DNA from: Clostridiaceae bacterium
GTDB lineage: Bacteria; Bacillota; Clostridia; Acetivibrionales; DUMB01
NCBI GenBank assembly: GCA_012840085.1
Contig: DUMB01000080.1
Coordinates: forward strand, 41,498-105,497
Direction of reading: 5' to 3'
Length of the DNA stretch: 64,000 nt
In this document: piece after piece, positions 25,483 to 43,949 of the stretch
Layout: every line of letters starts with the position of its first letter
Position numbering within the stretch: the stretch's first letter is position 1
Translations under genes and position numbers: made by a program
Notes under the pieces: generated by a model
The model's database searches: none
Seen by the model: only the letters and a program-made list of their open reading frames with translations
What the model was told of the DNA's origin: nothing

Positions 25483-25525
25483 ACTTAACACTCCCTCTCT
25501 ATTGCTGGAAATAAATATGTATCTC

Positions 25526-28500
25526 TCACCTAAGTTCATTTGTTGTTCTTAATATCTCTATCAAATTATTTTTCATTATGCTAAACTCATTTTCTTGTAT
25601 AACAGGATAATCAATCTCAACATTAACCTCTTCACTTAGTCGGAACAGGTAATTCCGACCTTTACGGCCTTTTTCAAGCAAGCTCTCTTGGACAGCCTTA
25701 TTAAGTTTAAATATCCGAAATACCACAAGATACCCCTCTTCACATCCTTCGAAATACTTTAGTGGTGCCTCTGGTGACCAAATAGTGAAGAGACCCTCTT
25801 CGTATAGTCTTTTAAATAATTCAGGTATAATTCTCACTTTAAATTGTTGGTCGATTCTTGCAACAAACTCAAGAATATAATTATTTTCCTTATAATCAGT
25901 TAATCTGGAGTAATATTTCTTACCTTCGACTGAAAGATCATAGATAGAGGAAGATTTCTTTGCATCTAAGAGGAATAGTCCATTTTCATTTGGTATTGGA
26001 TTCTTTTTGCAAATAAGAATTTGATAAGGGTACTTTGCATCTACTCCGCCCTTAGTCATTGCCATTATGTTTATATATTCATCTCTTAACACAAATCTAA
26101 CTTTGTTTTCATCTTCCACTATAGCAGTTCTCTCAATTTCTGTATATTTACTCTCCAGCCTCTCTCTATAAAATCTTCTTGTCCTGTAGTCAATAATATC
26201 CTTGTAATGCTTTATAAACGCCGGATTATGAATAAATTCCTCTAGTTCAGGAGCAAGGCAGAACCTGCTGTTATTATCTTCGTAGAAAAATTCCCCGGAA
26301 GATTGCATTAGAAACTTCATTGGGTTTCTTTTTGCCAGGCTTACAAATTCCTTTTTGCCCCAGCTCTTATAATTCATCGAGCTTTTATCTCTCAACATAT
26401 CAATTGCATTAGAAGGATTCGAATAAAACTCTTTAAAGCTTTCATAAATATCATCTTCATCAATTTTTAACTTCATTTGTCCGTTATTATAAAAAGCGAG
26501 AAGAATTGGTATTTTATACATTTTTGTCATACTTGTATTTTCAATTTCTTTAAGAAATTCGTGCGCCTTTGTACGCAATAATGCCTGTTCATCCTCTGAA
26601 AGTTCACCAATCTTTTCAAGGAATGAAATGTAGTCTTTGAATATATTTAAATCCTTTTTGGTACGGATTGCAATGTATATGCCCTCATCCATATAAGTAT
26701 ACATTTGCAGCCTCTGTGGCCTGTCTCCGAGATACTCCTTAATTCTGAAGTATTCATCCTTTACTCTTTCAAATAATTCTTTCTGCTCATCTGCCATCCG
26801 TTTAAAAAGATCTATTAACCTAAAGTCGAAATCAACAAAACAGCCTTCCGGATATTCTTCTTCATCCGGTATATGAATTTTTCTGCTCCCTTTTTCGAAA
26901 TCTTTTACATCTCCCGTAAGAAAAAATGGAATAAGATTTGCCCTTTTATAATTTCCTATAAAATCCAGAACATTTACATATTTTTTCCCACCTTTTTTAC
27001 GCAGTCCTCTGCCCAGCTGCTGTAAAAAAACCGTTGGTGACTCTGTTGGCCTCAAAAACATAACCATATCTACTTCCGGAATATCAAGGCCCTCATTAAA
27101 CATGTCTACAGAGAAAATTACTTTAATTTCAGCTCTTTTCAGTTTATCAACCGCTTCTTTCCGATCTGCAACATTACATGATTCTCTTTCATTTCTTAAA
27201 TTGGAACTATCTTTTGATATATTCCCGCTTATCACAGCACAAGCTTCAACTCCGTGTTCTGTAAAATAGTCTGCCATAAAAACTGCATGTTTTCTGCTTG
27301 AGCAAAATCCTAAAGCCCTACTGCTGTTAAACTTACGATAATGTTGCAATATTAAATCTGCTCGTTTGTTTATACTTAAAGCTTCTTCCAGTTGCTTCTC
27401 ATTATATTTTCCGTATTTATAGTCGATCCTGCTGTAATCTGTTTCATCATAAATGCCATAGTATCTGAAAGGTACAAGCCAACCCTTGTTTATGGCTTCC
27501 TTCAATCTGACTTCATACACAAGGTTATAATCACATAAAGCAAAAACATCCTGGTTGTCAAGCCTTTCCGGCGTTGCTGTAAGTCCAAGCAGGAACTTTG
27601 GCCGAAAATATCCAATAACATTCACATAGCTGTCTGCCACTGCATGGTGGAATTCATCAATGATAATATAATCAAATTCATCTCTTTCAAAATAATTATT
27701 GTTCAGATATTCTTTGCGTCCCATAGTTTGAACTGTAGCAAATAATATTTCACAATCTTTGTCTTTCCGCTCTCCGCTAAAAAATCCGGTGGTAGCTTCA
27801 GGCCTTACGCATTTGAAAGATCTTTCCGCCTGAAGGAGAATTTCTTCTCTATGAGCTATGAAAAGTATTCTTTTAAAACCCTTTGAATCAAAGGCTGCCA
27901 GAAATGTCTTTCCCGTCCCGGTGGCAGCAACCACTATACCTTTGTCCCATCCTTCAAGCCTGGACTTCTTCAATTCATACAGAGCTTCTATCTGAGGACC
28001 TATTGGACACGGATACTCTATAATTTTGCATTTGTCCTGATCATCTGTATCAATTGCATATTCCGGCTCAGGTTCTGCTGCTGCATATCCTGTCACAGGT
28101 ACATCAGCATTTTTTTCTTTTCCCGATTCGATAGCAGCTGAGGTTCCGTTTTCAAGCCTTTCCAAATCCTCAAAAAGTTTCGGCCTTCTCCAGGTTTTCG
28201 AATACTTTCTCATTTCATTATCATCAACTATAATTGAATGATTGAAAAATAGATCCTCAAAAGCTCGCTTAAAATGTAAATAATCTTCCGGACTTTTTAT
28301 AGAGCAGATTCTATAGTTCCACTCAATGCCGTCGGTCAAAGCTGAGCGGGACATATTTGAAGAACCTATAAAGATCTCGCCGCTATCTTCAAATTCAAAA
28401 ATATATGCTTTTGGATGAAATGATTTATTAGGAACGTTGTAAAAACGCAAATCAACCCCGTCTCCAAAAGAATCCTTAAGAAGATAAAGAGCTTGAGGCT

Positions 28501-28738
28501 GAGTTATATTGAGATAATTCCCACAAAGAATCCTAATAGCCGCCCCCCTGTTAACAGCTTGCTTGAAGTCCTCCTCTAAGAGCCTTACACCGGACTCCAT
28601 CAGAAATGCAACTATTATATCTATTCTTTTTGCCCTGGAACTTGACTCTTTAAGGCGATCATATAAATGATCTCTATCACCTGTGACACAATTTCTATTT
28701 GAGAAACTGTGATTATATAAAGATGAATACTCTGCCAT
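25526..28738 (-). CDS. PLD-SF2 helicase-DUF3427 protein
   Basis: 1070 aa. Residues about 25-165 are a phospholipase D-like nuclease domain with an H-x-K motif (SFHPKAYIFEFEDSG, GSSNMSRSAL). Residues about 255-610 form a superfamily-2 helicase: Walker A AATGTGKT, DEFHH box, GLTATPERLD, and the arginine-finger region QQLGRGLRKKGGKKYVNVLD. The C-terminal 400 residues match the DUF3427 type that ends with a short-patch DNA-binding region. Proteins with this layout occur alone in many bacteria and have been linked to DNA repair or anti-phage defence. Here it is unaccompanied by methylase or other restriction genes. The start has GGGAGATATG upstream. Confidence 0.85.
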   Translation of the reverse strand: MAEYSSLYNHSFSNRNCVTGDRDHLYDRLKESSSRAKRIDIIVAFLMESGVRLLEEDFKQAVNRGAAIRILCGNYLNITQPQALYLLKDSFGDGVDLRFYNVPNKSFHPKAYIFEFEDSGEIFIGSSNMSRSALTDGIEWNYRICSIKSPEDYLHFKRAFEDLFFNHSIIVDDNEMRKYSKTWRRPKLFEDLERLENGTSAAIESGKEKNADVPVTGYAAAEPEPEYAIDTDDQDKCKIIEYPCPIGPQIEALYELKKSRLEGWDKGIVVAATGTGKTFLAAFDSKGFKRILFIAHREEILLQAERSFKCVRPEATTGFFSGERKDKDCEILFATVQTMGRKEYLNNNYFERDEFDYIIIDEFHHAVADSYVNVIGYFRPKFLLGLTATPERLDNQDVFALCDYNLVYEVRLKEAINKGWLVPFRYYGIYDETDYSRIDYKYGKYNEKQLEEALSINKRADLILQHYRKFNSSRALGFCSSRKHAVFMADYFTEHGVEACAVISGNISKDSSNLRNERESCNVADRKEAVDKLKRAEIKVIFSVDMFNEGLDIPEVDMVMFLRPTESPTVFLQQLGRGLRKKGGKKYVNVLDFIGNYKRANLIPFFLTGDVKDFEKGSRKIHIPDEEEYPEGCFVDFDFRLIDLFKRMADEQKELFERVKDEYFRIKEYLGDRPQRLQMYTYMDEGIYIAIRTKKDLNIFKDYISFLEKIGELSEDEQALLRTKAHEFLKEIENTSMTKMYKIPILLAFYNNGQMKLKIDEDDIYESFKEFYSNPSNAIDMLRDKSSMNYKSWGKKEFVSLAKRNPMKFLMQSSGEFFYEDNNSRFCLAPELEEFIHNPAFIKHYKDIIDYRTRRFYRERLESKYTEIERTAIVEDENKVRFVLRDEYINIMAMTKGGVDAKYPYQILICKKNPIPNENGLFLLDAKKSSSIYDLSVEGKKYYSRLTDYKENNYILEFVARIDQQFKVRIIPELFKRLYEEGLFTIWSPEAPLKYFEGCEEGYLVVFRIFKLNKAVQESLLEKGRKGRNYLFRLSEEVNVEIDYPVIQENEFSIMKNNLIEILRTTNELR

Positions 28739-28762
28739 TTACATATCTCCCTTTATCCCTTA

Positions 28763-29140
28763 TTAACCGTCATACTCCACAAGGGGCTTTTTGAAGTTCC
28801 TTATGCCGCCTCTGGGATTATCAACATCTCCGAAATATCTGGGAATAACATGTATATGAAGGTGGAAAACAGTTTGCCCGGCAGCTTCTCCGACATTGAT
28901 TCCTATGTTGTATCCGTCAGGCCTAAGCTCGCTGTCAAGCAACTCTTTCACTTTATTAATCAATTCATTTAATGCCAGAATTTCATCCGGTGTCGAATCA
29001 AAGAAGCTGGCATAATGCCTTTTGGGCATCACAAGCACATGTCCGCTGTTTACAGGGTAACTATCATATATTGCAAAAGCAAGTTCGTTTTCCATTATAA
29101 AGTTTTTGCTGTTCATATATTCACAAAAAATGCAGGACAT
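28763..29140 (-). CDS. HIT-family hydrolase (Hint/Fhit-like)
   Basis: 125 aa from the ATG at 29140 after TTGGAGG. It has the zinc-like CIFCEY start and the histidine triad HLHIHVIPRY, with the upstream INVGEAAGQTVFHLH, typical of HIT nucleotide hydrolases or transferases that cut AMP conjugates. It stands 24 bp upstream of the helicase gene on the same strand and may be co-transcribed. Confidence 0.92.
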   Translation of the reverse strand: MSCIFCEYMNSKNFIMENELAFAIYDSYPVNSGHVLVMPKRHYASFFDSTPDEILALNELINKVKELLDSELRPDGYNIGINVGEAAGQTVFHLHIHVIPRYFGDVDNPRGGIRNFKKPLVEYDG

Positions 29141-29261
29141 TAGAACCTCCAAAATTATCATAACATATTGAATTTATCACAAAATATGGCAAGCCTGTAT
29201 CTATAATATCAATAATTTTAAACATTATCAAAAATAATTTTCTATTCTTAAAACCCCAATT

Positions 29262-29301
29262 ATAAAAGGACTGCCGTCCAACAAACTGAACAGCAGTCCT
29301 T
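29262..29301 (-). terminator. terminator of the radical SAM/Hsp70/HerA operon
   Basis: AAGGACTGC and GCAGTCCTT form a 9-bp stem with an 18-nt loop, followed on the minus strand by TTTTATAATT. It lies 114 bp after the radical SAM stop codon. The gap between the stop and this hairpin has no convincing gene. Confidence 0.7.
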
Positions 29302-29414
29302 CAGTATAAATTGCCAAAGTATAGATATTATTCAGAATCTAAAACCGCAAGCAGGGAGTCCATATCGTGAGGTACCTCAATGTACTTGAAGTGTTACTTC
29401 CAATTATGAGGCTT

Positions 29415-30632
29415 TTATGCTCTTGTTAACACTCCCAACCGAACCAATTCATCACAAAATGTCAATACTTCAGAATTAGCTCTCTCATCAGATAACTTAA
29501 ATAATGTTGCGATGATGCTCGATATTTCCTGTATGCTCTTTCCGCTAGCAATTTCTTCTAATATTATTGCTCCCGTTTTATTTAATCCATACGGAGTTCC
29601 TTTTATTGCCACAACAGCAATCGTATCCTCCAGGAACAATTCACTAGCCGGATTAGCATTTTTGAAATACTCCGCAATAGATACTTTTTCGTCAATACGA
29701 TAGTCTTTTTGGAATACAATGCCTTTATTTAATTTATACATATTTCTCCCTTTCTTAGCAAATCCCATGCAAGAATAATGTGAACGAAGATAAATTAATG
29801 ACTCAGAGTTGCACCAAACATCGTGAATATCATCTTTTACCGCATTCCCTATTTTATAAGTATTGTAAACACATGGTGAAATATCTCCATTACACATAAT
29901 TGCGAGTGATGTCTTTCCGCACGGACATCCATTATCTATTCCCTCAATGTATTCTGAACCATAACTGAGATTTATCGTTATTGGATATAGTTTTTTCCAT
30001 GTAACAATATTACTGTACAACTGCTCTTTCTGTGATTCACTTAACTCCAAATCCTGTCTAAAATACGCATTACCCATTGTTTTTAAACGTTTGAAATCTA
30101 TGCCGTTTACACCCAATGAAACTCCTAATTTTATTATTTCTTCCAGATTTCCATAATTCTGAGTTGTAATAGTAGTTGAAATAGAAACGTGAAATCCGGC
30201 CTCAACATACAATCTAATACTTCTACAAGCCTCTGCCCAGCTATTTGGCTGATTTCGGTTTTCATCGTGGAGTTTGCTATCAGAATTATCAATACTAACA
30301 GATACCCCGCGAAGGCCTGACCGCTGTAGTTGACTCACAACTTCTTTCGTCAGCTTCCAGCCATTTGTACTTAGATTCACTTGAATATTATGTTCTGACA
30401 AAAACCGGATAACCTCAAAACAATCATTACACAATAGAGGTTCTCCTCCTCCAAGATTGACATTAAACACCTTGTTTTTTGCAATATTTTTAGCTACAAT
30501 CATTTTGTCTTCAAAATCCAGCTCGTTTAAATCCATCCGGGTTCTGCTATAACAGTGAGTGCAATTAAAATTACATTTATAAGTATAATTCCAATTGACA
30601 TGCATTGGTGCGCCTAACAAAATATATTCCAT
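29415..30632 (-). CDS. radical SAM/SPASM peptide-modifying enzyme with C-terminal PqqD-like domain
   Basis: 405 aa from the ATG at 30632, which has AGAGGCG upstream. The cluster motif C20-x3-C24-x2-C27 (CNFNCTHC) and NLGGGEPLL define radical SAM. A SPASM-like set of cysteines follows (C236, C238, C247, C254, C288) for auxiliary clusters. From MYKLN at about residue 298 the rest is a PqqD-like domain (VAIKGTPYGLNKTGAIILEE, then helices to the end). Such enzymes install C-C or thioether links in ribosomal peptides. The 64-aa peptide encoded 143 bp upstream is the likely substrate. The bond formed cannot be predicted. Confidence 0.85.
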   Translation of the reverse strand: MEYILLGAPMHVNWNYTYKCNFNCTHCYSRTRMDLNELDFEDKMIVAKNIAKNKVFNVNLGGGEPLLCNDCFEVIRFLSEHNIQVNLSTNGWKLTKEVVSQLQRSGLRGVSVSIDNSDSKLHDENRNQPNSWAEACRSIRLYVEAGFHVSISTTITTQNYGNLEEIIKLGVSLGVNGIDFKRLKTMGNAYFRQDLELSESQKEQLYSNIVTWKKLYPITINLSYGSEYIEGIDNGCPCGKTSLAIMCNGDISPCVYNTYKIGNAVKDDIHDVWCNSESLIYLRSHYSCMGFAKKGRNMYKLNKGIVFQKDYRIDEKVSIAEYFKNANPASELFLEDTIAVVAIKGTPYGLNKTGAIILEEIASGKSIQEISSIIATLFKLSDERANSEVLTFCDELVRLGVLTRA

Positions 30633-30774
30633 AATATACGCCTCTTTATATATTCTTTTCTGCCTCAGCAATTTCTGATTGATCCGTTTATTTCACAACT
30701 ATATAATCCTAATTAAAAGCTTCTTGCCTTTTGCTTTAGCAAAACTAAAATCTGCTATTCATATTCTTCTCGAT

Positions 30775-30969
30775 TCAGGCCGTAGTACAAGAGCTTCCAA
30801 AACTTAACCGTGAAATCTTGGGCGGTTCATATGTCAGCGGAGTTTCTTTGAAATCCAACACCTTATCCAAAGTATCCTTCATATCCTGCTGATTGAGTTC
30901 ATTAGCCGAATGCTCCATACCATCTTGGAATTCTTTCAACTCATTTCTGTTAGTAATCTCACTTGACAT
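30775..30969 (-). CDS. putative RiPP precursor peptide
   Basis: 64 aa with a strong AGGAGGA site. The N-terminal 45 residues are acidic and helical without Cys. They are followed by the segment YEPPKI, similar to the Y-x-x-P-x-I/L element read by PqqD-type recognition domains, and then the short tail SRLSFGSSCTTA with a single Cys, several Ser/Thr and one Phe. It lies between a PqqD-like gene and a radical SAM/SPASM gene and starts 4 bp after the former. That context and shape fit a modified peptide whose core is the last 10-14 residues. I do not recognise a named family. Confidence 0.75.
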   Translation of the reverse strand: MSSEITNRNELKEFQDGMEHSANELNQQDMKDTLDKVLDFKETPLTYEPPKISRLSFGSSCTTA

Positions 30970-30972
30970 AAT

Positions 30973-31302
30973 TTAGTCCTCCTCGATAATAATATTATTT
31001 TGCAGTAAAAAATTAAGTGTATTCTCGAAATCGCTCATAACTCTTACGGATTCGATTTGGAATAATGAGGCAATCTGTGTAACCGTGTCTGTTTTCTCAG
31101 TGTTTGATAAAATATACTCTAATATCATTGCAGATACAGCATTGAAACCGTATGTATTGTGATCAACGGTTACAACTATTACTCGATCGCTTGTAAGTAG
31201 ATCTGGATAGTACAGTCCTTCCCTTACATACCGTTCCACAGTGTAGTCTGGCGGAATTCGAAAACCTCTCTGCATTTCAGCTTGCGGATTCAACTTATAC
31301 AT
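30973..31302 (-). CDS. PqqD-like peptide-recognition protein (RRE)
   Basis: 109 aa with a strong AAGGAGG site. It opens with MYKLN and contains RVIVVTVDHNTYGFNAVSAM, then a helical wing ending in LLQNNIII. This matches the PqqD fold: three beta-strands and a helical bundle that bind leader peptides. The same MYKLN start and YGxNxxxAxILE block recur in the C-terminal domain of the radical SAM enzyme, so the two domains are paralogues. It starts 25 bp after the gene upstream and ends 3 bp before the precursor. Confidence 0.75.
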   Translation of the reverse strand: MYKLNPQAEMQRGFRIPPDYTVERYVREGLYYPDLLTSDRVIVVTVDHNTYGFNAVSAMILEYILSNTEKTDTVTQIASLFQIESVRVMSDFENTLNFLLQNNIIIEED

Positions 31303-31326
31303 ATAATACAGCCTCCTTATTAAATA

Positions 31327-31749
31327 TTATTTATTTGATATTTTTATTTCTGCGATATGAGATATTGTATTTTTTATTGTCTGAATTGTATAAATTGAAC
31401 CATTTATACCAAAATACCCTAATACAGTCATGCCGCTTCCTACTTCGAAGTGCGGCTGTCCGTATTCATGCACAAATTCAGAATAACTACGGTTTTCCCA
31501 CTTTTGGAGTTCTGCAAATGGTAGGTTGAGTACATTTACAGACGCAATTTGTATTTCTCCAAAATTGTTGTACAATGCATAAGCTGTTGATTTCCCAAAA
31601 ACAAATGAAATTGCGATGTAGCCTCCATTGGATTTAAAAACCGCCAAGGAAGGATATTCTATAACTGGCATTCCATAATAAGATGCGATCTGTTTTTTGG
31701 TGCAACCAAGAATATCACTCATAGACATGCTAATACTGTCATTATTCAT
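31327..31749 (-). CDS. unknown small protein of the peptide operon
   Basis: 140 aa. It starts inside the end of the peptidase gene (8-bp overlap) behind GGAGG. There is no signal peptide or membrane segment. The sequence alternates short beta-strands (GGYIAISFVFGKSTAYALYN, FGEIQIASVNVL) with the turn-rich HEYGQPHFEVGSGMTVLGYF, which suggests a compact beta domain. I do not recognise the family. Its position between a peptidase and the PqqD-like gene suggests a role in maturation or as an immunity or binding protein. This is inference only. Confidence 0.6.
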   Translation of the reverse strand: MNNDSISMSMSDILGCTKKQIASYYGMPVIEYPSLAVFKSNGGYIAISFVFGKSTAYALYNNFGEIQIASVNVLNLPFAELQKWENRSYSEFVHEYGQPHFEVGSGMTVLGYFGINGSIYTIQTIKNTISHIAEIKISNK

Positions 31750-32497
31750 GCTCTACCTCCAATCCACTTAGTTTTTTTACTGCATAGTACCCTAGAAAAT
31801 GCTTATATTCTCCTCTGTCACATTCGGATGGATCAAAAATCAGGTTTCCTCTTGCATTTGTATTTTCCACTTGAGAAGTTCCCGGTTTATGATACCAGTT
31901 ACCTTCCTCACCTTTTCTGTAAAAGTGGAAGTCAGTAAAAGATCCAGGGTTATTTATTAGATTATCCGTTACTGCTAATGCTATCATCCATTCTCCATCT
32001 CCAGGCTGATAATCTTTTTCGACTTCTTTAATATCCATTCCAAGTACACTCGCATCATCTTTCATCATCTTATAGAAAAAGTTTTTTTGTTGTTGCGGGG
32101 TTCCGAAATTCAGTACTTCCAATGATTGCCTGGCTATTTCAGGATCAAATCCATGTGACAAATCACCAGGAGTCGGGCGACATTCAAATGGTAATCCAGT
32201 CAAAGGATTAAGAGGCAACTTCATAGCGAAAGCATAACAGTTCGGCCCCTCCATTGTAAACGTTTCATCAGAAAAATGATATAATGACAGATCTCCATAT
32301 TTTTCAAACTCTAAGGTATACTCTGTTTCTTGTTTCTCTAAAAAATCATGGTAATAGTATTCTGTCATTTTTCTTCTGAATTCTGCCGGATCCCATCCAA
32401 ATGCAGCAAAAATATTCTTCTCTCGTGCATCCTGAATTTCATGTTTCGATTCAGGTATACTCTCCACATTAGATGAATGTTCCAGTATCTCAGACAT
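31742..32497 (-). CDS. papain-like cysteine peptidase candidate
   Basis: 251 aa, cytosolic. The motif EGPNCYAFAMK with C87 at the start of a helix, TDFHFYRKGEEGNWYHKPG with H191 and H203, and a downstream LIFDP resemble the Cys/His/Asp arrangement of a papain-like (NlpC/CHAP-like) family in which NCYAYA, DxHWYR and W-HKPG motifs recur. It could remove the leader of the peptide, or it could be an effector acting on cell wall or protein. The start has AAAGGAG upstream. The assignment rests on motif shape only. Confidence 0.55.
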   Translation of the reverse strand: MSEILEHSSNVESIPESKHEIQDAREKNIFAAFGWDPAEFRRKMTEYYYHDFLEKQETEYTLEFEKYGDLSLYHFSDETFTMEGPNCYAFAMKLPLNPLTGLPFECRPTPGDLSHGFDPEIARQSLEVLNFGTPQQQKNFFYKMMKDDASVLGMDIKEVEKDYQPGDGEWMIALAVTDNLINNPGSFTDFHFYRKGEEGNWYHKPGTSQVENTNARGNLIFDPSECDRGEYKHFLGYYAVKKLSGLEVEHE

Positions 32498-32596
32498 GAG
32501 CCGATTTATCTCCTTTCATATTATATTACCGATTGTCCTTATCGATGGACCGAAAGGAACGCATATGCTATAAGTAGATTAATGATATTTCAAGAA

Positions 32597-35500
32597 TCAG
32601 TAAGTACTCTGCATATATTTTTGAAAAGCAACCGCTATCTTTTCAAATCGTTCATCCTGCAAATAGTATTCATTGACTAAAATAAAAATAAAATAATCCA
32701 ACTCTCGATTGCTCATAGAATCTATTGTATCTGGCAGTGCTCTTTCGACAATACCACGAATTCTTGCTGGACTAGCAGCATTTATTGCTTTTTCGAATGT
32801 GCTGCGAAGATCGAAATACGCACAAACAATTCGCGGATAAACAGATTGCCGATCTTTCATATTTTTAGACGAATACTCTGTAAGCAGTTTCTTGATTTCG
32901 CCACTAATAGGGAGCTTAAAAAACGCTTCCGTATTGTCTGGGAAATACTTAGAAAGCCACTGATCCAAACGACGGTGAGCAATTGCATTCCCAAGTGAAA
33001 TATCAACCAAGGAATCATCTATTGAATCCTCTGGACATTCATAAATCTCTTCATCTACCTGCCAATATGGAATTTTGACAAGAGATGCACCAAACCAGTC
33101 ATTTTGATAAACTGCGGCAATTCCCGTAGGAAGTTTTGCCAGCTCATCTATTTGCTCGGCGTTCAGACCGATTGAATGCCCTATAAGCTCCCGATCTGAT
33201 GATTCTGGTAATCTCAAAACAATTTTTGTATTTGTGTTTCGAATCACAGATAAATCCAAAAGCCCAGGTGCTTGATCAACAATAATAAATCCTTCACCAG
33301 TAGAACGCATTTCTGCCAAAGAATTTGAAAGCATTTCAACAGACTTTCCTGTAATATTTGCAGTACCTATAGATTGCTCTGTTGATATTCGTTTTAAAAT
33401 GTTATGTGCTTCTTCAAGAACTGTTATGTGCCGTAATCCTGAACTAATTGTTTTTGTTGTACACTGGCGATACTCCTTCAATCTGATAACAAGCAATCCC
33501 ATAATCAACGCTTTCGTTTCTGACGATCCCAATCGACTTAAATCTATAATTACGTTGTTGTCAAACAGATCTTCGTCTGATAAATCATTCGAACAGAACA
33601 GAGTACTATTAGTGCCGGTAGTCAATTCCCTTAAGCGGGTAGCTAATGCACCTTTATAATTCCCTTTAATTTCAGCTGAGTAATCTGACTCATCCATAAT
33701 CTGGTTGATACACTTAAAAACATCTTGAAATGTTGGGAATATATCCTGAGAAATTTTATTATTTGATTCTCTCAGGTTCCATCCGGAAATCTCATAGGCT
33801 CTCTCGACTGCCTGCTTCAAAACCGATGGCATTGCGGCTTCCATTGGCCAGCATACATTGAATACACTAATTAAGTAATCTATGTGTTCTAGCACATGTA
33901 CGCCCCTTCTAAATCTAAACGGATTTATTCGAAGCAACTTACTAATCTCCTTATTTGTACCATAAACTTCAACATCATCGCGGTGTCCAAAAACAGTTTT
34001 ATACTCGCCCTTTGCCGGTTCTATCACCATAAAATGTAATCCTGGTCGTGCAATTAGTGCATTGTTAAGCAAACTATATATTGTATTGCTCTTTCCAGAC
34101 CCTGTCGTCCCGGTTACAAAGGTATGCATGGTTAAACTATCCAAGTTCAATGTTACATCTGTTTTTTCTTCGCAACCCAAATGATAAATCTTCCCGAGAT
34201 TAAAACTATCCTTTGGAGTATATTTACCCGTTCGAATAATGTTACATTCAAAGCCCACACTTTCCCGTACCGATATTCCATTTATATTGTTCCTTGGTAG
34301 TCCCATAAAAATCGATAGTTCCTCCGACGTATTCATAACGGCGGGTGTAGCAGTTATATATGTTCCATCTTGCTCTCGAATCAAAAAAACAGGATGCTGA
34401 TAACATCTCAAATAACTTACTATTTTTTTATACTCGGCTCCATACCAAATGTTTACAGCAGAATTTTCAAGCTCAGTTTCAGTTCCGTATACGATTGCTT
34501 TAAATGAAGATGCCGCAATTCTGGCATCAGATAATGTCGGTGTAAGAATATACGCCGCAGCAGAAAACATTCCCAAACCCTTACCGTGGCTAATACGCTT
34601 CAATTTTTCATCGATTCTTTTAAGAAGATCTGAAACAGATTTATTCTCTACGGTCAGTTGAATTGTTTCACCTATCGTATTTGTCTTAGTGTCACCATCT
34701 GTCTTTCCAGCTGATTTTCCCGCCGACCTAGATATTGCATCAGATACAGCTTTACCAAAAGACATGGATTCGCTCTGCCCTTGATTGTAACTTACACCAT
34801 CTGAATTGCCTATAGACAATCCATAAGCATTTACACCTAAAGAAGAACTCGACCAATTGCTTACTCCTTGATTGTATGAATTACTTCTACCAACATTCAA
34901 TGAGGCAGATTTGGTTTTATTAATATTGTCCGTGATTGTTTCAGTATATGACTTTGAAATACTCTGAGCAGCAGACCAATTCGAAGATACCTGAATTTTT
35001 GAATATACAGATAAATTGGTGTATAGCATTTCCAGTTCTGTTCGAACCGAGTCAATTTCTTCGGGCTGAACTGGTCTGGCAAGAATAATTATCGTGTATT
35101 TCTTTCCTGACATAGTTTCAATCACTTTTTCCAAGCCTTGATAAAAACCACTATTTTGCTTTCCGTTATTATCTCTTGCTGATGCAATACATGAAACACT
35201 GGATACTGCTGTATATTCCAGGTCAAAGCATTTGTTCTGCAAGATTCGAATATCTTGTCTATTTAAAAGAGCAGTTTCATTGTCTCTGCATCCCGGAAAA
35301 TTACCAATAAAACTATCAAAGAGCCCTTTTGCTTTGGGGTAAGCTCCATTTATTCGACTGTTCTCACAACACACACCCAAATATAACTCTGTTTCACCAG
35401 ATTCATAGCCTCTGATAATCATTGCAAGATTTGCTCCCATGCTTCCTGCACTCGCATAAACACTTGTCAATTTCTGCAAGCTGTTTTCATGCTTATCTAA

Positions 35501-35722
35501 CACTATTCTATGAATAGGGAAAAAGCATGCTGACTCGGCAATGTCGAAATCAGTTTCCTTATTTTCTACAATCTCCGATTTTTCGATATTCTGCAAGTAT
35601 GATTTGTTAACAATTAGTTCAATATTTTTCAATATCGCGGGAGTTCTAAATAATGAATCATCATTTGTATAAACTTGAACATCTGTTTTTTCTTTTTTCA
35701 AAGAGTCTGCTGATCTTCCCAT
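32597..35722 (-). CDS. HerA/VirB4-type ATPase with Ser/Asn/Gly-rich insert
   Basis: 1041 aa. Walker A GTTGSGKS (538-545), Walker B TVLEEAH (767-773) and the GFIIVDQAPGLLD motif (811-823) place it with HerA/DUF87 and conjugation-type (VirB4/TraG) pumps that form hexamers and move DNA or protein. The first 240 residues are a non-ATPase domain. Residues about 246-345 form a low-complexity Ser/Asn/Gly-rich stretch (SNWSAAQSISKSYTE, SSSSLGVNAYGLSIGN), rare in this family. No membrane helix is evident. In the operon it lies between the 366-aa protein and the peptidase, so export or loading of the modified peptide is a possible role. Confidence 0.8.
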   Translation of the reverse strand: MGRSADSLKKEKTDVQVYTNDDSLFRTPAILKNIELIVNKSYLQNIEKSEIVENKETDFDIAESACFFPIHRIVLDKHENSLQKLTSVYASAGSMGANLAMIIRGYESGETELYLGVCCENSRINGAYPKAKGLFDSFIGNFPGCRDNETALLNRQDIRILQNKCFDLEYTAVSSVSCIASARDNNGKQNSGFYQGLEKVIETMSGKKYTIIILARPVQPEEIDSVRTELEMLYTNLSVYSKIQVSSNWSAAQSISKSYTETITDNINKTKSASLNVGRSNSYNQGVSNWSSSSLGVNAYGLSIGNSDGVSYNQGQSESMSFGKAVSDAISRSAGKSAGKTDGDTKTNTIGETIQLTVENKSVSDLLKRIDEKLKRISHGKGLGMFSAAAYILTPTLSDARIAASSFKAIVYGTETELENSAVNIWYGAEYKKIVSYLRCYQHPVFLIREQDGTYITATPAVMNTSEELSIFMGLPRNNINGISVRESVGFECNIIRTGKYTPKDSFNLGKIYHLGCEEKTDVTLNLDSLTMHTFVTGTTGSGKSNTIYSLLNNALIARPGLHFMVIEPAKGEYKTVFGHRDDVEVYGTNKEISKLLRINPFRFRRGVHVLEHIDYLISVFNVCWPMEAAMPSVLKQAVERAYEISGWNLRESNNKISQDIFPTFQDVFKCINQIMDESDYSAEIKGNYKGALATRLRELTTGTNSTLFCSNDLSDEDLFDNNVIIDLSRLGSSETKALIMGLLVIRLKEYRQCTTKTISSGLRHITVLEEAHNILKRISTEQSIGTANITGKSVEMLSNSLAEMRSTGEGFIIVDQAPGLLDLSVIRNTNTKIVLRLPESSDRELIGHSIGLNAEQIDELAKLPTGIAAVYQNDWFGASLVKIPYWQVDEEIYECPEDSIDDSLVDISLGNAIAHRRLDQWLSKYFPDNTEAFFKLPISGEIKKLLTEYSSKNMKDRQSVYPRIVCAYFDLRSTFEKAINAASPARIRGIVERALPDTIDSMSNRELDYFIFILVNEYYLQDERFEKIAVAFQKYMQSTY

Positions 35723-35740
35723 GGCTCTTTCCTCTCTCTA

Positions 35741-36841
35741 TTAATTAGATATTTCATCTTTCAATTCTACATCTAACAAAGTTTCAATTTTATCAAGAAG
35801 ATCAATTACCCAGTCATAGACTTTTTTAACATCTGCATCGCTGACATTCGGAGTTTTCTCCCGGAGCTTCTCTTCAATTCGACGATAAAGTTTTCCACCT
35901 TTAACAAGGCCATATTCTTCGAACATTCCAACTAATACATCGTGCATTTTTCGTAAACGATATTGCTGTGCATAGCGGTTTGTAAATAGCATTATTGTCT
36001 GTTGAATCTTTTGAAGTTGAGGAGATGCATCAAAACCTTCAATATCTTCAATGTGCAGATACTCATCGTTACTAATGAATAGAAATGGGATATCCTGTAT
36101 TCCATTCTCTAGCAAAATACGGCTCACCTCTCTATAATAATCATTGCACATATGGGCGTCACAATCATCGTACTTACATAGCAAAAGAAACCGTTCTCTT
36201 TCAAAGCCCCGATCTTGTATTTTCATAAACTCCTTTGCAAGCGAACTGAACAGCTCTTTTGTTCTGCACTCATACAAAGACTTTATATCAAAAGATAAGC
36301 AAATCAGTTTCCATGAATCCGGTGAAAATAATTCATCCCTCTTTTTTTCCCATTCATCGATTGGAATCATCATACCTGCTGATGATTCCAATCCTACACA
36401 AGCATTCAAATAATCCCAGACATTAGTAGGCAAGAACTGTTTAACACCATTATTTTTCGCATTTTGAATTAGTTTGGATAAATATTTGATTTTTTGCTGG
36501 CTACTATTCTGTTCCGTATACATACTTTTATGGACATTTATAGTTACGTTACTATTACATCGCACATAATTGCCGGCTGCTTCCTGAAAATCAAAAAAGT
36601 CTTCTGTTGTTCCACAAAACAAGATATCAAGGGAATTATCCCCAGTCACTTCAATCAATTCATCGAAGATACATTTGTTATTTACGTCACTCTGAGATTG
36701 GAAGAGCCTTCTTTGTAATCTTTTTTTTGAAAATAAAGTTAACCCGGAATTTTCGTCAATCGGAATCCAATTATTATTTTTTTCAACCCATAATGACATT
36801 TCGACTCTAAACGGATTGTATGACAATCTTAGTTTTTCCAT
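35741..36841 (-). CDS. unknown protein of the peptide/Hsp70/HerA operon
   Basis: 366 aa, soluble, with a good TTAAGGAG site. The N-terminal domain begins SYNPFRVEMSLWVEKNNNWI and has DILFCGTTEDFFDFQEAAGN, alternating strands and helices as in an alpha/beta fold. The C-terminal 100 residues are helical (YAQQYRLRKMHDVLVGMFEE and the charged tail). I recognise no catalytic motif. It starts 102 bp upstream of the stop-to-start gap with the Hsp70-like gene and 18 bp before the HerA-type gene, and is very likely part of the same complex or pathway. Confidence 0.6.
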   Translation of the reverse strand: MEKLRLSYNPFRVEMSLWVEKNNNWIPIDENSGLTLFSKKRLQRRLFQSQSDVNNKCIFDELIEVTGDNSLDILFCGTTEDFFDFQEAAGNYVRCNSNVTINVHKSMYTEQNSSQQKIKYLSKLIQNAKNNGVKQFLPTNVWDYLNACVGLESSAGMMIPIDEWEKKRDELFSPDSWKLICLSFDIKSLYECRTKELFSSLAKEFMKIQDRGFERERFLLLCKYDDCDAHMCNDYYREVSRILLENGIQDIPFLFISNDEYLHIEDIEGFDASPQLQKIQQTIMLFTNRYAQQYRLRKMHDVLVGMFEEYGLVKGGKLYRRIEEKLREKTPNVSDADVKKVYDWVIDLLDKIETLLDVELKDEISN

Positions 36842-36943
36842 ATAATAATCTCCTTAAATAAGTCCAAAACTTTATGAACTAATTGCACAACCAACGAAGA
36901 AAAAGAATCATCAACAATTCCATTGTCATTGGAAAAACAGGAA

Positions 36944-38956
36944 CTATAAACCGATAAAACACTCTTTAGTCCGCTTCCAAATATTCCTCAAGAACCAATT
37001 TACCCAAGATTTTTTTACTTGCACTTTCATAAGATTTAGTAAGTCGATATGACCTTCAAGTTGGAACAACTGCATAAAAGTACAAGAATAATCATCTGTA
37101 ACATCGAATTCCAGTTCAAAAAAGACCTTTTTACATAACTCGACTGTTTCGTCTGTCGATTTGCCAATCCATTTGTTTAATTCGTCTACTATCGCATTAT
37201 AAAAATCAAGACGCTTGTTTGAAAATAAGCCTTTATTATCATTGGGGAAAACACTCCAATTTAATTGTTTATAATATGAAACGATTTCAGATACAATTGC
37301 TTCAAACATCTCAGGCAAAAGGCGTCTGCAATCAGAAAGGAAAACCTCGTCTTCTTTTTTTAGCAATTCAAATTCATTCAACCCAAAGTCTGATGCAGTC
37401 TTCTTAAACTCTCTGTTTATCTCTGATTTCAAACTCTCAATTTGTTTTGCAATGTCACTAATAAAAGAAGGTATACCTGTATTTTTACTCCAATTTCTTA
37501 AATGCCATTCGATTTTATCACTAATTGAAGTATTACTGCACTTATATTCTCTCCATTGGTCTAAACCGTATTTTACTGCTTTGAATTCTTCTCCTGTAAT
37601 ATCTTGTACAAAGTTTTTTACGCATTCAAAGTATGCTTTTGCAAGACTCTGGTTTATATAATTTACAGAATCCCCATCTTCATCAATAACTTCTCTATCC
37701 GTAAATGCTTCAAAAGCTTTTTCAAACTCAAGTGCAGAAATCTTATCAGGTCCCCAATACGCCATTCCTTTTCCAATAGCAGATATAGCGTCTTGATCAC
37801 AATACACCGATGCGGCAGGATAATGTGCTCTGATTGCTTCCGGAATACAATTCATCAATGATCCACCACCAGTAACCATAATAACCGTATTTTTACCATC
37901 ACCAATGCTGGGATACTTTTCATCCAGCTGATATAAAAAGTTATGGAAAGCCTGCATCCAAGTATTATCACCTATGCTTTTCTGCACTTCCGGTGCTAGT
38001 CTATCAAACTCCAAACCAAGAATCTCTTTGATGGAATACTTTTCAAGTATGTTTTCCATCATCACAGAGTTTGTAAAAATTGTCAGTGGGACATCCTCAT
38101 CATTATAATCCAGTGTTTCCATAAGATCAGCGTTCTTGATAAGAGTATTTTTTGCCTGAGCAGTAAAGTATCTTTCTTTGAGCCTTCTGCACTGTAGCAA
38201 TAAGTATGTGTAAAACTTTCCATCATATCCCTCTTTTTCGACCAACTCGCGTGCCAGCTGAACCGTCCCAGGATAATTAATACTCATTTTTTTCCTTAGC
38301 CGGATTTTCTCTTCATCAAAGTATAAAATTATGTGAGCCATCATTCGCTCAATAAGGCCTGCTCCTAAATATCCTCCATAAGATGTAACATTCCCGTTGT
38401 CATAATAGGTTACATCAAGAGAATACGCGCCTTGATCAAAAAGGAGAAATTTTGTTCCTTGCTTATATTCATCTAGAATGCGATTTGTTTTTTGATAGTA
38501 AGCTAATGCAGCGTTAGATTCTGGAACAATAAAAACATTCTCAAATCCAGCTTCTTCAAAGATGCTTTTGAACAATTCTCGAGCTTTTTTTTCTTTCCAT
38601 TCATCGCCTGTTGGACAACCAATAAACCAATACGGCTCATCGACATCTTTAAATTCCTCAGGATGCTCCAATTTCATTTTTCGAAGCCAATTCTTGAAAT
38701 ACTGCACTAGTTCTGCTCTATGGCTTTCATCTGGCCTCGCTTTGATATTTATATGAAAACTATCAATCTCCTCTAATTGATGGAACGTCAAACCATATAA
38801 TCCCAAACCAAGATATAGTCCTTTTTTAGAAATAGCATATCCAGAGGGTTCTCCACCAGGTGTATTTAGTGCGTTGGCTTCATGAACACCGTTTGGATTC
38901 AGCCAATAGATACATGTATTACCAGCTCCAAAATCAGCAGCATAAACTCTTTTCAT
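36944..38956 (-). CDS. Hsp70/actin-fold ATPase with extended C-terminal region
   Basis: 670 aa. Phosphate-1 loop ADFGAGNTCIYW (residues 7-18), the connector-like PESNAALAYY (145-154), phosphate-2 region LLFDQGAYSLDVTYY (171-185) and adenosine motif VTGGGSLMNC (361-370) define the Hsp70/actin ATPase fold. The phosphate-2 loop is DQGAYS instead of the usual DxGGGT, so hydrolysis may be slow or altered. Residues about 385-670 form a helical region unlike the DnaK substrate domain. The start has AAAGGGG upstream. It may act as a switch for the HerA-type partner. Confidence 0.8.
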   Translation of the reverse strand: MKRVYAADFGAGNTCIYWLNPNGVHEANALNTPGGEPSGYAISKKGLYLGLGLYGLTFHQLEEIDSFHINIKARPDESHRAELVQYFKNWLRKMKLEHPEEFKDVDEPYWFIGCPTGDEWKEKKARELFKSIFEEAGFENVFIVPESNAALAYYQKTNRILDEYKQGTKFLLFDQGAYSLDVTYYDNGNVTSYGGYLGAGLIERMMAHIILYFDEEKIRLRKKMSINYPGTVQLARELVEKEGYDGKFYTYLLLQCRRLKERYFTAQAKNTLIKNADLMETLDYNDEDVPLTIFTNSVMMENILEKYSIKEILGLEFDRLAPEVQKSIGDNTWMQAFHNFLYQLDEKYPSIGDGKNTVIMVTGGGSLMNCIPEAIRAHYPAASVYCDQDAISAIGKGMAYWGPDKISALEFEKAFEAFTDREVIDEDGDSVNYINQSLAKAYFECVKNFVQDITGEEFKAVKYGLDQWREYKCSNTSISDKIEWHLRNWSKNTGIPSFISDIAKQIESLKSEINREFKKTASDFGLNEFELLKKEDEVFLSDCRRLLPEMFEAIVSEIVSYYKQLNWSVFPNDNKGLFSNKRLDFYNAIVDELNKWIGKSTDETVELCKKVFFELEFDVTDDYSCTFMQLFQLEGHIDLLNLMKVQVKKSWVNWFLRNIWKRTKECFIGL

Positions 38957-38975
38957 ATGTTATACCCCTTTCAAA

Positions 38976-39791
38976 TTACTTTATTTCTCCACGGGCAAGA
39001 ATTGACTTATCAGAATAAACAGCTGGTCTAGTAACTTGCGTATATTCATCACCTTCTCGACCATCAAACAGAAAATCTTGAATAGGGACATCAGGAAGCC
39101 CATCATCATTTAGATAAACCTCATCATATACATGAATGTGCATATTTGCCAGATGGTTAATTAAATCGTCTCGCAAATTTTGTAGTTTTCGATCTTCTTG
39201 ATGGCATTTTGCATACATCAGAAAATTCTGAACCCATCTTCCAAATGCTTTATCTAAAGCCACGTCGTGTATATCTTCCAACCTATGTTCAAGTTCAGCA
39301 ATCTCAATACACAAGGAATCGATTTTCTTTTGTACTTGCTCGGAAAGTTCCTGTTTTTTTTGGCTATTTACAGATACTTCGAAATCTATATCTTGGCTAG
39401 TAAGCATCTGCAAGTTTAGTTTTTCAAGATTCAAATCACTAAACGAAAGTTGATCTGCTTTTCTTGTATTCTGAATAAATCCCGCGGCTACACCGCCAGC
39501 TCCTGACAATAAAACAACAACCGCCGCCGGTGCATGAAATGTAATTGCTAAAGTAGCCAAACCTGCAGGAAGAGCGCCTGATAGAATACTGTCAATAGCC
39601 GTCTCTTTTATTTCATTAAGCCTTAAATCATTTTGGGGTTGTTCATTTGGAATTTCAACATATCCATCAGGAACAGTGCAGCGAACATCAATAATAGAAT
39701 CAGCTTGTTCTATTAGCTGGTTTTTAATTTGTGTAATTCTTTCAGCCAAATCACGAGCAAATGGTCCTATTTTCATATTATCGTTACCCAT
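38976..39791 (-). CDS. membrane-hairpin coiled-coil protein
   Basis: 271 aa from the ATG at 39791, preceded by AAGGAG. The track frame reaching 39815 would overlap the previous gene. A hydrophobic hairpin lies around residues 75-110 (GALPAGLATLAITFHAPAAV, VVLLSGAGGVAAGFI), followed by a charged coiled-coil region (KKQELSEQVQKKIDSLCIEI) and a C-terminal domain ending DEYTQVTRPAVYSDKSI. It could anchor the ATPases to the membrane. Unknown family. Confidence 0.65.
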   Translation of the reverse strand: MGNDNMKIGPFARDLAERITQIKNQLIEQADSIIDVRCTVPDGYVEIPNEQPQNDLRLNEIKETAIDSILSGALPAGLATLAITFHAPAAVVVLLSGAGGVAAGFIQNTRKADQLSFSDLNLEKLNLQMLTSQDIDFEVSVNSQKKQELSEQVQKKIDSLCIEIAELEHRLEDIHDVALDKAFGRWVQNFLMYAKCHQEDRKLQNLRDDLINHLANMHIHVYDEVYLNDDGLPDVPIQDFLFDGREGDEYTQVTRPAVYSDKSILARGEIK

Positions 39792-39990
39792 TGTTTTTCT
39801 CCTTATTAATTCCATTCTCAGGCATTTTACTGATAACTGATTTCAGCCAAAACGATGATGCTATTCCACCTACAATTCCAAGAAGGGAAATTAGTCCAAT
39901 TCCGGCACCAACAGCAATAGTCCCGGCAATTCCAGAAAAGAGTGTTGAAATACAGAAAAGAGTGTTGAAAGTATCGTCTCGTCTGCTCAA
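39784..39990 (-). CDS. small two-helix membrane protein
   Basis: 68 aa from the TTG at 39990, with GAGG upstream; it overlaps both the upstream gene (4 bp) and the downstream gene (8 bp), so the three are translationally coupled. It is largely hydrophobic: a Gly/Ala-rich stretch (GIAGTIAVGAGIGLISLLGI) suggests one or two membrane helices, with a basic tail (SKMPENGINKEKNN). The N-terminal codons contain a 20-bp tandem duplication in the DNA. Family unknown. Confidence 0.55.
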   Translation of the reverse strand: MSRRDDTFNTLFCISTLFSGIAGTIAVGAGIGLISLLGIVGGIASSFWLKSVISKMPENGINKEKNNG

Positions 39991-40172
39991 CCAGATGCCT
40001 CAGCAGCTACTGCATCAATGGCTTGTTTTATCTTTAAATACTCCTCTTCTGAGAAGTTTGTTTCTTCATCAATCAGAAGATGAGCAACTTTTGGTAATAC
40101 TTCATTCTCAGGATGCCCTTGTGCCTCATAATCAAGGACTACCCGGATGGTAATGTACAGTGTCAAACTCAT
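39987..40172 (-). CDS. small acidic protein, first gene of the operon
   Basis: 61 aa, ATG start with only a weak AAGG directly in front. The sequence MSLTLYITIRVVLDYEAQGH is a beta-strand, followed by an acidic helix (NFSEEEYLKIKQAIDAVAAE). No domain recognised. Its stop codon overlaps the start of the membrane protein (TTGA). It may be a leader gene whose translation governs the downstream genes. Confidence 0.5.
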   Translation of the reverse strand: MSLTLYITIRVVLDYEAQGHPENEVLPKVAHLLIDEETNFSEEEYLKIKQAIDAVAAEASG

Positions 40173-40702
40173 CCTTGTTTTAGCATTTTCAATATTACTA
40201 ATGGTTTGCTATCTTCAATCGTCCAGCCAGCAATTTTTCGAATAGTCTACAGGTTCTCCTGGAGAAATATAGTTTAGAATTGACTTTAGATATTTACCGG
40301 TAATATCCAATATATAATGCTTACAGCTTTACTATCTTAATATCAGGAGTATATAAAGGAAAAGCCGATCTTATGAGCAGAAGAAAAGTTGAAATAAATA
40401 AAGCCAATCCGATAAGAGTTATTATTATCTATAACCATTTTTCTCCTTTCCCCTTTACTTGATATAAGTATATATCTTTCTTATATCCTTGTCAATTATC
40501 CGGACTTCCGATTTTTTTTACAAATTCCATTTTCGTTACTTCAATCAGGTATGAAGCTATCCATTAATTGGGTAGCCAACCTCCCACATCACCTTAAGAC
40601 ATCGTCCAACAATCATATTCACCTTATACTTTTCTCCTCAAGGGGTATGATTTCGATGATTTTTGGATTACCTTCAAAATTTTTATATTCATGTAAGCAT
40701 TT
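40173..40702. other. upstream region of the operon with a near-palindrome and a short recombinase-like frame
   Basis: An imperfect palindrome GATATTTACCGGTAATATC (40289-40307) and TTCTCCTGGAGAA (about 40253-40265) lie upstream of the operon and could be operators. On the plus strand 40373-40462 encodes MSRRKVEINKANPIRV..., 29 aa, which resembles the start of recombinases but stops at once. No consensus promoter is evident for the operon. Confidence 0.4.
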
Positions 40703-40908
40703 TTATTCCGCTAAGGCCTTCTCCAGCAGTGCTTGAAATCTAATATTGCTTTCTCTGTCTTTGATTGCAATCCTGAAGAACTTGTCATTTAAGAATTTGA
40801 AGTTGTTTGCATCCCTTATCAATATGCCCTTTTTGCCCATAGTTTCTTTAAGTGTAGCAACATTCAGCGAAGGTAACAAGATTCTTATCAGAATAAAGTT
40901 TGTTTATA
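40703..40908 (-). pseudogene. fragment of a CobD/HisC-type aminotransferase (C-terminal end)
   Basis: About 67 residues translate as KETMGKKGILIRDANNFKFL, DKFFRIAIKDRESNIRFQAL and a final ALAE stop. This is the C-terminal end of threonine-phosphate decarboxylase/histidinol-phosphate-type aminotransferases, in which IRDASNF and RIAIKDR motifs are conserved. The rest of the gene is missing; the frame runs into a stop beside the IS30 remnant, so the gene is broken. Confidence 0.7.
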
Positions 40909-40935
40909 AATTGCAATATTAAATGCCGTGTAAAA

Positions 40936-41601
40936 TTATGGTAATCCATTGCTTGTAATCCAGTTCTGTGGATGGCGCAGTACAGAACCGCGAGCCTTTT
41001 TCCCTATTACAGTATCCATCTCCCAATGATCATATTCTTCTCTGTTTTCTATCTCTTTTGGCCTTTCATCTATACTGCTCCCCTTAAGATTCTTTAACGT
41101 CACTTTAACCCGCTGATATATGCGTTTTCTCTCATTTCTCTTAATGGGTAAATCTTTATTCGTTAACTGTGTAAAGACATCCTCACGGTCAATGTAATTG
41201 TATAGTGTCTTTGTACATATACTTGTATTAAATTTAAGCCCCTTTGCCTTTATTTGGCCTATAACCGCATTGGGTGAATATTTCTCATTGATTATCTTTT
41301 TTTCAATATACTTTGCTAGTTTATGGTCGTTACCGATTTTTAACTGTGGCCCTTTATTCATTCCATTTTCTATATATTTCCTTTGAGCAACATCTGCACA
41401 ATATTCTTTTCTATACGTTAAATCGCTGTTTTGAAGATAAACAGTGCCTCTTGCTATCTCCCTTTCTAATGTTCTTATATGCCGGCCTCATCTTTTTGCA
41501 ATTTGCGATTTTGAGTAGTTTTCTTTAAGTAAGATTTCTATGGTATATCTTTCTTTCTCGTTTAGGTATTTGTTTTTTCGTGATTCTGTGGTATTATTCA
41601 T
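40936..41601 (-). pseudogene. IS30-family transposase, broken by an internal TGA and truncated
   Basis: Starting at the ATG 41601, the frame reads NKYLNEKERYTIEILLKENY, then SKSQIAKR, then a TGA at 41488-41490 inside the HTH, and continues in frame (HIRTLEREIARGTVYL) to the part with DHWEMDTVIGKK, the IS30 catalytic DDE core entry. Only the first catalytic Asp region is present; the 3' end is replaced by unrelated residues (RGSVLRHPQNWITSNGLP). The element is inactive. It lies between the aminotransferase fragment and the URO-D fragment. Confidence 0.85.
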
Positions 41602-41688
41602 AGTGACTCATGGTTACTCCTTATTAAATAGATTTTTTCATGTCCGTCTGGTTCCTTATTCCGTTCATTGTTCCTGTCCATAAAGATA

Positions 41689-41930
41689 TTAATGATATAG
41701 TATACTCATAAGCCTGAGCATTTCGCTTTTTACTTCTTCCGGCATAGCTTTTGGCAAAAGCGTTTGTGTACTTATCCCGCCATAGAAAGTGATCTTATCT
41801 ACAGAAAGTCTTTTCATCTTGAACTGGGTTTGATATATCCACACTTATCTCAATCAAATCAGGAATAATTTTCTGGTGCATAAAAGCAACAGTAATAAAA
41901 ACCCTTTCTTTTATAGAATTCAGGAGCATG
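41689..41930 (-). pseudogene. fragment of a URO-D-family gene with frameshift
   Basis: Two frames together encode FMHQKIIPDLIEISVDISNP and then KRLSVDKITFYGGISTQTLL, PKAMPEEVKSEMLRLM. The equivalent part of the intact neighbour (42868-43923) reads LQKIIPDLIEIGVDILNPVQ and DKLSFWGTVGTQTTMPFGSP. The two halves are out of frame with each other, so this is a decayed paralogue. It shows local duplication of this family followed by loss. Confidence 0.7.
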
Positions 41931-41964
41931 AAGAATATGTCATTACGAGAGCAGGGCTTTTTAT

Positions 41965-42006
41965 GCGGCATTTCAGTTCAATAAGCCCTTCCCCGTGAAA
42001 TGCCGC
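41965..42006. other. perfect 11-bp inverted repeat
   Basis: GCGGCATTTCA and TGAAATGCCGC are separated by 20 nt. No T-run follows on either strand, so it is not a typical terminator. It lies 75 bp downstream of the GyrI-like gene and could be a stem-loop at the end of that transcript. Confidence 0.5.
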
Positions 42007-43923: not shown

Positions 43924-43949
43924 AAATTCCACTCCAATATAAAGCAATC

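Follow-up and report, generated by a model that had tools for sequence, protein, structure and literature searches.

A Hsp70-like and HerA-type ATPase operon with predicted toxin, immunity and modified-peptide genes in a Clostridiaceae bacterium

We analyzed a 64,000-nucleotide stretch of contig DUMB01000080.1 from a Clostridiaceae bacterium (hereafter, the window), which carries a minus-strand operon running from position 40172 to 29415 with short gaps or overlaps between neighbouring open reading frames (ORFs; Table 1). All eleven ORFs listed by the initial annotation were recovered in place, as was the terminator it had put at the operon end, a strong hairpin about 110 bases past the radical SAM gene that a simple consensus terminator scan did not list. 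As a count of genes, however, eleven is too many, the 61-aa and 68-aa ORFs being pieces of a single broken gene: their counterpart in the related locus L007 is one 135-aa ORF, with an N-terminus that looks HTH-like (helix-turn-helix) by eye, and the window version is out of frame. Pfam, NCBIfam and PADLOC recognized the radical SAM/SPASM enzyme, the HerA/DUF87 ATPase and, weakly, the separate PqqD-like protein, but no others. Pfam gave nothing better than E 0.009 for the peptide or the Hsp70-like, 366-aa, 251-aa, 140-aa, 279-aa and 68-aa proteins, and the 61-aa ORF, scanned against PADLOC and NCBIfam only, matched neither. The aligned region favours 30632 over the first-listed TTG as the start of the radical SAM gene.

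Table 1. Features of the window operon in order of transcription, with the evidence for each and the role predicted for its product
Feature	Coordinates	Strand	Evidence	Predicted role
Broken small gene (61-aa and 68-aa ORFs, two hydrophobic segments)	39784..40172	-	Comparison with L007	Probable regulator or membrane protein, disrupted in the window
279-aa membrane-anchored coiled-coil protein, conserved C-terminal domain	38976..39815	-	Kept in L007, L008 and L009	Anchor or adaptor of the core
Hsp70/actin-fold-like ATPase, 670 aa	36944..38956	-	Family alignment motifs	Nucleoside triphosphate (NTP) switch
366-aa protein	35741..36841	-	First ~100 residues common to dynamin-type proteins of sister loci	Inactive dynamin-like partner
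HerA/FtsK-type ATPase, 1041 aa, Ser-rich stretch	32597..35722	-	PF01935 (HerA/DUF87) 3.4e-16	Cargo pump
251-aa papain-fold protein (predicted)	31742..32497	-	Invariant GPNC, D-H-F, W-HK	Toxin of the pair
140-aa protein	31327..31749	-	Position; overlaps 251-aa gene by 8 bases	Immunity protein
PqqD-like protein, 109 aa	30973..31302	-	PF05402 8.4e-4, below cut-off; matches radical SAM C-terminal domain	Peptide-binding partner
64-aa peptide	30775..30969	-	C-terminus SFGSSCTTA	Precursor peptide
Radical SAM/SPASM with C-terminal PqqD-like domain	29415..30632	-	PF04055 2.8e-24, PF13186 2e-8, PF05402 1.2e-6	Peptide-modifying enzyme
Intrinsic-terminator-like hairpin	29262..29302	-	Fold -26.6 kcal/mol, z -8.08 vs shuffles, T's at end	

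Scanning GTDB species genomes with an Hsp70-like alignment yielded five loci, L007–L011. Three of them, from Oscillospiraceae (L007), Lachnospiraceae (L008) and uncultured Clostridia (L009), keep the order 279-aa, Hsp70-like, 366-aa and HerA, with identities to the window proteins of 30–42%, 44–53%, 27–37% and 43–48%, respectively. L010 has a distant Hsp70-like gene without the remaining core genes, and L011 is a 3.4-kb contig with its gene context beyond view. Directly behind HerA, L007 and L009 encode a toxin domain of the papain-fold glutamine amidase kind (PF15644, 1.1e-15 and 5.2e-14) followed by a small protein, and L008 encodes a protein of the 251-aa type, 32% identical to that of the window, with an overlapping 122-aa ORF in between. 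Farther along, L008 carries a related peptide and a same-family radical SAM enzyme, its C-terminal domain in a separate ORF, and L009 carries a 140-aa Cys-containing protein and a different radical SAM. The initial annotation had proposed looking for homologues of the Hsp70-like, 366-aa and HerA genes beside radical SAM genes in other genomes, and they adjoin such genes in L008 and L009. Because the core order is kept in three genomes, with radical SAM genes behind it in two, the link is not accidental.

The Hsp70-like family retains DxGxGNT-, DxGAYS- and TGGGS-type motifs and comprises at least 58 proteins including that of the window, nearly all nameless (7993 candidates scored). Among the matches listed, the two most distant, cyanobacterial proteins P0057 and P0058, carry the PF00012 annotation; the window protein itself has no PF00012 match at E 0.1. 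We therefore keep the label Hsp70-like from the initial annotation only in this loose sense. The last ~20 residues of the window ORF depart from the family, and a different frame, next to an A run, still encodes a tail of the family type, ILGKLVLEEYLE, so that the loss reflects a frame change, through either mutation and decay or a sequence error. The Hsp70-type locus is rare, and among 60, 391 and 300 genomes full-length protein or profile matches were confined to the query genomes. Elsewhere, L023–L033, from genomes of G430's family, have a distant ~638-aa Hsp70-like gene, often beside a ~290-aa gene, and no further core gene within the 3–4 kb read. Just upstream of the Hsp70-type locus in L009 (L009:1913-8130) lies a second cluster with another Hsp70-like protein (722 aa), an AAA+ ATPase (PF00004 2.3e-26), a metallopeptidase-like protein of 221 aa and one of 144 aa. 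AAA+ genes related to that of L009 adjoin distant HerA genes in L124, L125, L126 and L132.

Downstream of its first ~100 residues, the 366-aa protein shows a GTPase-like fold without a canonical P-loop. Many sister HerA loci encode dynamin-like proteins upstream of HerA, where the window subtype has its Hsp70-like and 366-aa genes. The 279-aa protein has a hydrophobic segment at residues 85–103 and a coil seen by eye, and its family counts eight database proteins, that of the window among them.

The HerA ATPase belongs to a much wider family. At E <=1e-20, a profile built from four HerA proteins had matches in two families, that of G431 (47 of 397 genomes) and that of G432 (12 of 200), query genomes counted. 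We fetched 53 stretches for HerA relatives, leaving out 6 of 46 further genomes, and defined as close the loci with a HerA score of at least 500 (n = 40, window counted). In 19 of the 39 close loci that have a downstream gene, it shares 1 or 4 bases with HerA. For the genes behind HerA, 37 proteins were scanned, 32 of them from close loci and five from lower-scoring loci, with L064, L066, L068, L069, L099, L109, L117 and L121 left out (next gene absent, distant or of another kind). Pfam assigned 12 to WHH/colicin DNases, 7 to Endonuclease_NS_2, 3 to LHH, 3 to Gln_amidase and 1 to Ntox15. With L126 and L128 subtracted, a Pfam toxin domain thus stands directly behind HerA in 24 of the 40 close loci, drawn from five toxin families. 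Membership in WHH, NS_2 and LHH was assigned by our own clusters, and the Pfam scan gave the totals. In the HerA subgroup of L064, L099 and L115, the next gene encodes a related ~530–580-aa protein, Ig-like in L099 (Big_2 2.5e-13) and weakly so in L115, and L064 continues with a canonical Hsp70 (PF00012 5.1e-116).

The toxin genes come with partners that track the toxin type. A SUKH-like partner was found at all 12 WHH loci (11 of the 12 in the profile, L112 outside it) and at none of the seven NS_2 loci, and a Pfam scan of 33 partners returned SMI1_KNR4 in 11, YezG-like domains in 5, and single PoNi and Tdi1-type domains. Of 43 HerA plasmid records, we opened ten: an annotated HNH nuclease adjoins HerA in four (L154, L155, L156 and L158), with SMI1/KNR4 next in three, two cyanobacterial records have MNIO, and the other four have neither an annotated HNH nuclease nor MNIO. 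Judged from these domains, the pairs behind HerA in the relatives are a toxin and its cognate immunity protein. Moreover, a leader of ~45 N-terminal residues recurs on six toxins whose nuclease domains fall into three kinds: L101 and L108 in the WHH cluster, L103, L106 and L110 in the NS_2 cluster, and L061, HNH-like by eye and without a Pfam match. A profile of this leader finds one more gene at E<0.01, a second gene of L110 (1.3e-9). The leader is not seen in the window subtype; its presence on all six is the best indication that the toxins are handled by one shared machine.

In the window itself, we read the 251-aa protein as the predicted toxin of such a pair, although it matches none of the five toxin families found in the close HerA loci. 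The initial annotation had called it a cysteine peptidase; we keep the papain fold, with its invariant GPNC, as a prediction and read the function as that of a toxin. The overlapping 140-aa protein weakly resembles the 169-aa protein of L008 (0.4% of shuffles were as good). Under a competing explanation, the locus would be a radical SAM bacteriocin cluster of the RiPP type (ribosomally made modified peptides), with the 251-aa cysteine protein as leader peptidase and the HerA and Hsp70-like genes as a dedicated exporter. C39/PCAT peptidase domains are indeed among the fold matches of the 251-aa protein, and the peptide, PqqD-like and radical SAM genes adjoin one another in the window, as do peptide and radical SAM in L008. 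Yet L007 and L009 have their Gln_amidase toxin-domain proteins at this position behind HerA and sister loci have nucleases there, and L007 has no radical SAM within the stretch read, which leaves this explanation improbable.

The peptide module belongs to the Hsp70-type subtype: a profile from the three radical SAM proteins concerned finds the enzyme in three of the four Hsp70-type loci and in none of the 36 remaining close loci. A profile for radical SAM enzymes in general might recover additional ones; the distant HerA locus L124 has a radical SAM gene, and L069 has a candidate, a Cys-motif ORF. The 64-aa peptide has a relative in L008, with the C-terminus SFGSSASSS (z 9.7 vs shuffles), and the L008 radical SAM is 40% identical to that of the window over 289 residues. 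GeoRSP-type clusters, whose TIGR04303 is the best NCBIfam model for the window enzyme, are alike in combining a SPASM radical SAM, a PqqD-like protein and a small precursor; they differ in that the window enzyme reaches 173.6 of the 400-bit cut-off, has no exporter gene beside it and is embedded in a HerA operon. Adjacency by chance is very unlikely, even though one of the four Hsp70-type loci lacks the module, the L009 enzyme is of a different kind and broken transposase frames, seen by eye, lie in the window region. L008 keeps a same-family radical SAM and a related peptide at the same place, and the profile finds the enzyme in none of the other close loci. In addition, two cyanobacterial plasmids, their HerA only 26% identical, carry a DUF692/MNIO RiPP enzyme (PF05114 3.2e-24, L161) near a zinc metallopeptidase; two unrelated RiPP enzyme families beside HerA genes make a chance association less likely still. 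The metallopeptidase (L160:11628-12347 and L161:11632-12348), with weak PF15890 and PF07737 matches under the cut-offs, ends in a Cys-rich tail, where a protein effector may itself carry a RiPP-like modification.

Taken from sequence, these features suggest an NTP-driven machine for polymorphic toxins, which would move the toxin, and perhaps the modified peptide, across or into a membrane against rival cells by means of the Hsp70-like and HerA-type ATPases. We consider the chances of this evenly balanced. In such a machine, the HerA hexamer would grip its cargo by an N-terminal leader and thread it through; the Hsp70-like protein would give the nucleotide switch that a dynamin supplies elsewhere, with the 366-aa protein as an inactive dynamin-like scaffold; the 279-aa protein would fix the assembly to the membrane; and the 140-aa protein would shield the producer. 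The 64-aa peptide, which the PqqD-like protein would bind and the radical SAM enzyme modify, would be a second cargo, because the operon has no exporter of its own. The suggestions of the initial annotation, that an energy-driven process delivers the modified peptide or that the operon is a peptide-based conflict system, come close, except that the HerA family would normally take as cargo a toxin with its immunity protein and not a peptide. Export of the toxin, with the peptide perhaps alongside, is what the antibacterial toxin domains with immunity, the shared leader, the tight coupling to HerA and the modified peptide without its own exporter speak for; on balance they bring it to about an even chance.

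Several observations weigh against export and for the main competitor, an intracellular defence in which the dynamin or Hsp70-like protein would sense invasion at the membrane, HerA would capture invader DNA or free an effector, and the immunity gene would act as an antitoxin restraining the nuclease, much as in HerA/FtsK capture or Eleos. The operon has no polytopic membrane protein or channel, so that a channel or vesicle route is left unexplained; some sister loci, such as L094, L099 and L115, do encode upstream proteins that have three to four hydrophobic segments, and the tie of LeoABC dynamins to toxin release in vesicles, made in the excerpt of PMC4159319, would give a channel-free route. 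The window HerA matches the PADLOC HerA and mad8 models (mad8 3.7e-21), PADLOC LeoA matches the dynamins of three plasmids (3.8e-9, 5.2e-6 and 3.1e-14), and the PADLOC viperin model pVip matches the radical SAM at 7.4e-24, although NCBIfam viperin (NF038283) scores it 69.1 of 180 bits, below the cut-off. WYL regulators stand beside L154, L158 and L162 and defence genes close to other HerA loci, with McrC in L156, Csm6 in L163 and, in L061, a BrxL gene (BREX, PF13337 2e-146; L061:3675-5738) immediately preceding dynamin, HerA, HNH-like and SUKH genes. The idea of invader capture by HerA/FtsK proteins is itself set out in the available part of PMC12839542. Conversely, the effectors include non-nucleases (Gln_amidase, metallopeptidase-like), SUKH, YezG and PoNi are immunity families known from interbacterial toxins, one leader on different toxin domains suits cargo handling better than DNA capture, and the peptide-modifying module would have no clear role. 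We regard defence as a serious but lesser possibility.

Several known systems resemble the locus in part. Polymorphic toxin systems, as described in the excerpt of PMC3482391, likewise join variable toxin domains (WHH, LHH, NS_2, Gln_amidase/Tox-PL-like and Ntox15) with an immunity gene each, and an N-terminal leader is common to six of our toxins; in contrast, no carrier domain was recognized on the HerA-family toxins. The routes named in that excerpt (T2, T5, T6, T7SS, PVC, PrsW, MuF and TcdB/TcaC) include none with a dynamin or Hsp70. Type VII secretion, with EssC of the FtsK/HerA clade, shares an FtsK/HerA-type ATPase, nuclease toxins and YezG-like immunity, but the window operon has no multi-transmembrane protein, and EssB/YukC was not found in the draft genome of the window (97% complete); a B. 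subtilis control was positive. LeoABC/Eleos is similar in that upstream dynamins of sister plasmid loci weakly match the PADLOC LeoA/LeoBC models; it lacks the added HerA, toxin and immunity genes, and the window has an Hsp70-like ATPase with no dynamin recognized by sequence and no LeoA/LeoBC match among ten proteins scanned. The HerA/FtsK anti-invader systems in the available part of PMC12839542 also place a HerA translocase beside effector nucleases; unlike them, the window operon has no PglZ, DUF4007, STAND or TGT recognized by Pfam, and the effectors of its relatives have immunity partners. For the window HerA, the best NCBIfam models are the NF033849 serine-rich protein (2e-25; 88 bits against a cut-off of 650) and the CedD ATPase (1.1e-24; 87 bits against 600), and it stays well below both cut-offs. 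The parts are of known kinds; their combination turned up in none of the open-access papers among the matches listed.

The flanks of the operon were read by eye. Immediately upstream lie broken IS30-type transposase frames (window 40700-41970) and, past them, a fragment resembling uroporphyrinogen-decarboxylase-like genes at 42868-45059. On the other side, the adjoining minus strand (window 25150-29161) encodes a MazG-like 129-aa ORF, a 1070-aa protein with a PLD-like start and DEAD/DEAH helicase motifs, and a HIT-family-like 132-aa ORF, a trio that is a possible defence cassette.

More broadly, and more tentatively than for export itself, the loci may represent a new class of toxin delivery found in several phyla: a HerA pump would work with an exchangeable switch, either dynamins or an Hsp70 paired with a dead dynamin, on leader-tagged toxins and RiPP-modified cargo, the latter a radical SAM peptide in Clostridia and possibly an MNIO-modified metallopeptidase tail in cyanobacteria. 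If true, this would link work on interbacterial protein toxins, on bacterial dynamins or Hsp70-like ATPases and on RiPPs, three fields so far kept apart. That one kind of HerA ATPase comes with dynamin-like proteins in some loci and with Hsp70-like ones in others would then amount to a natural experiment on the role of the switch, and a cultured carrier of the dynamin-type locus, dairy Lactococcus cremoris with plasmid pF27B, puts the choice between export and defence within direct experimental reach.

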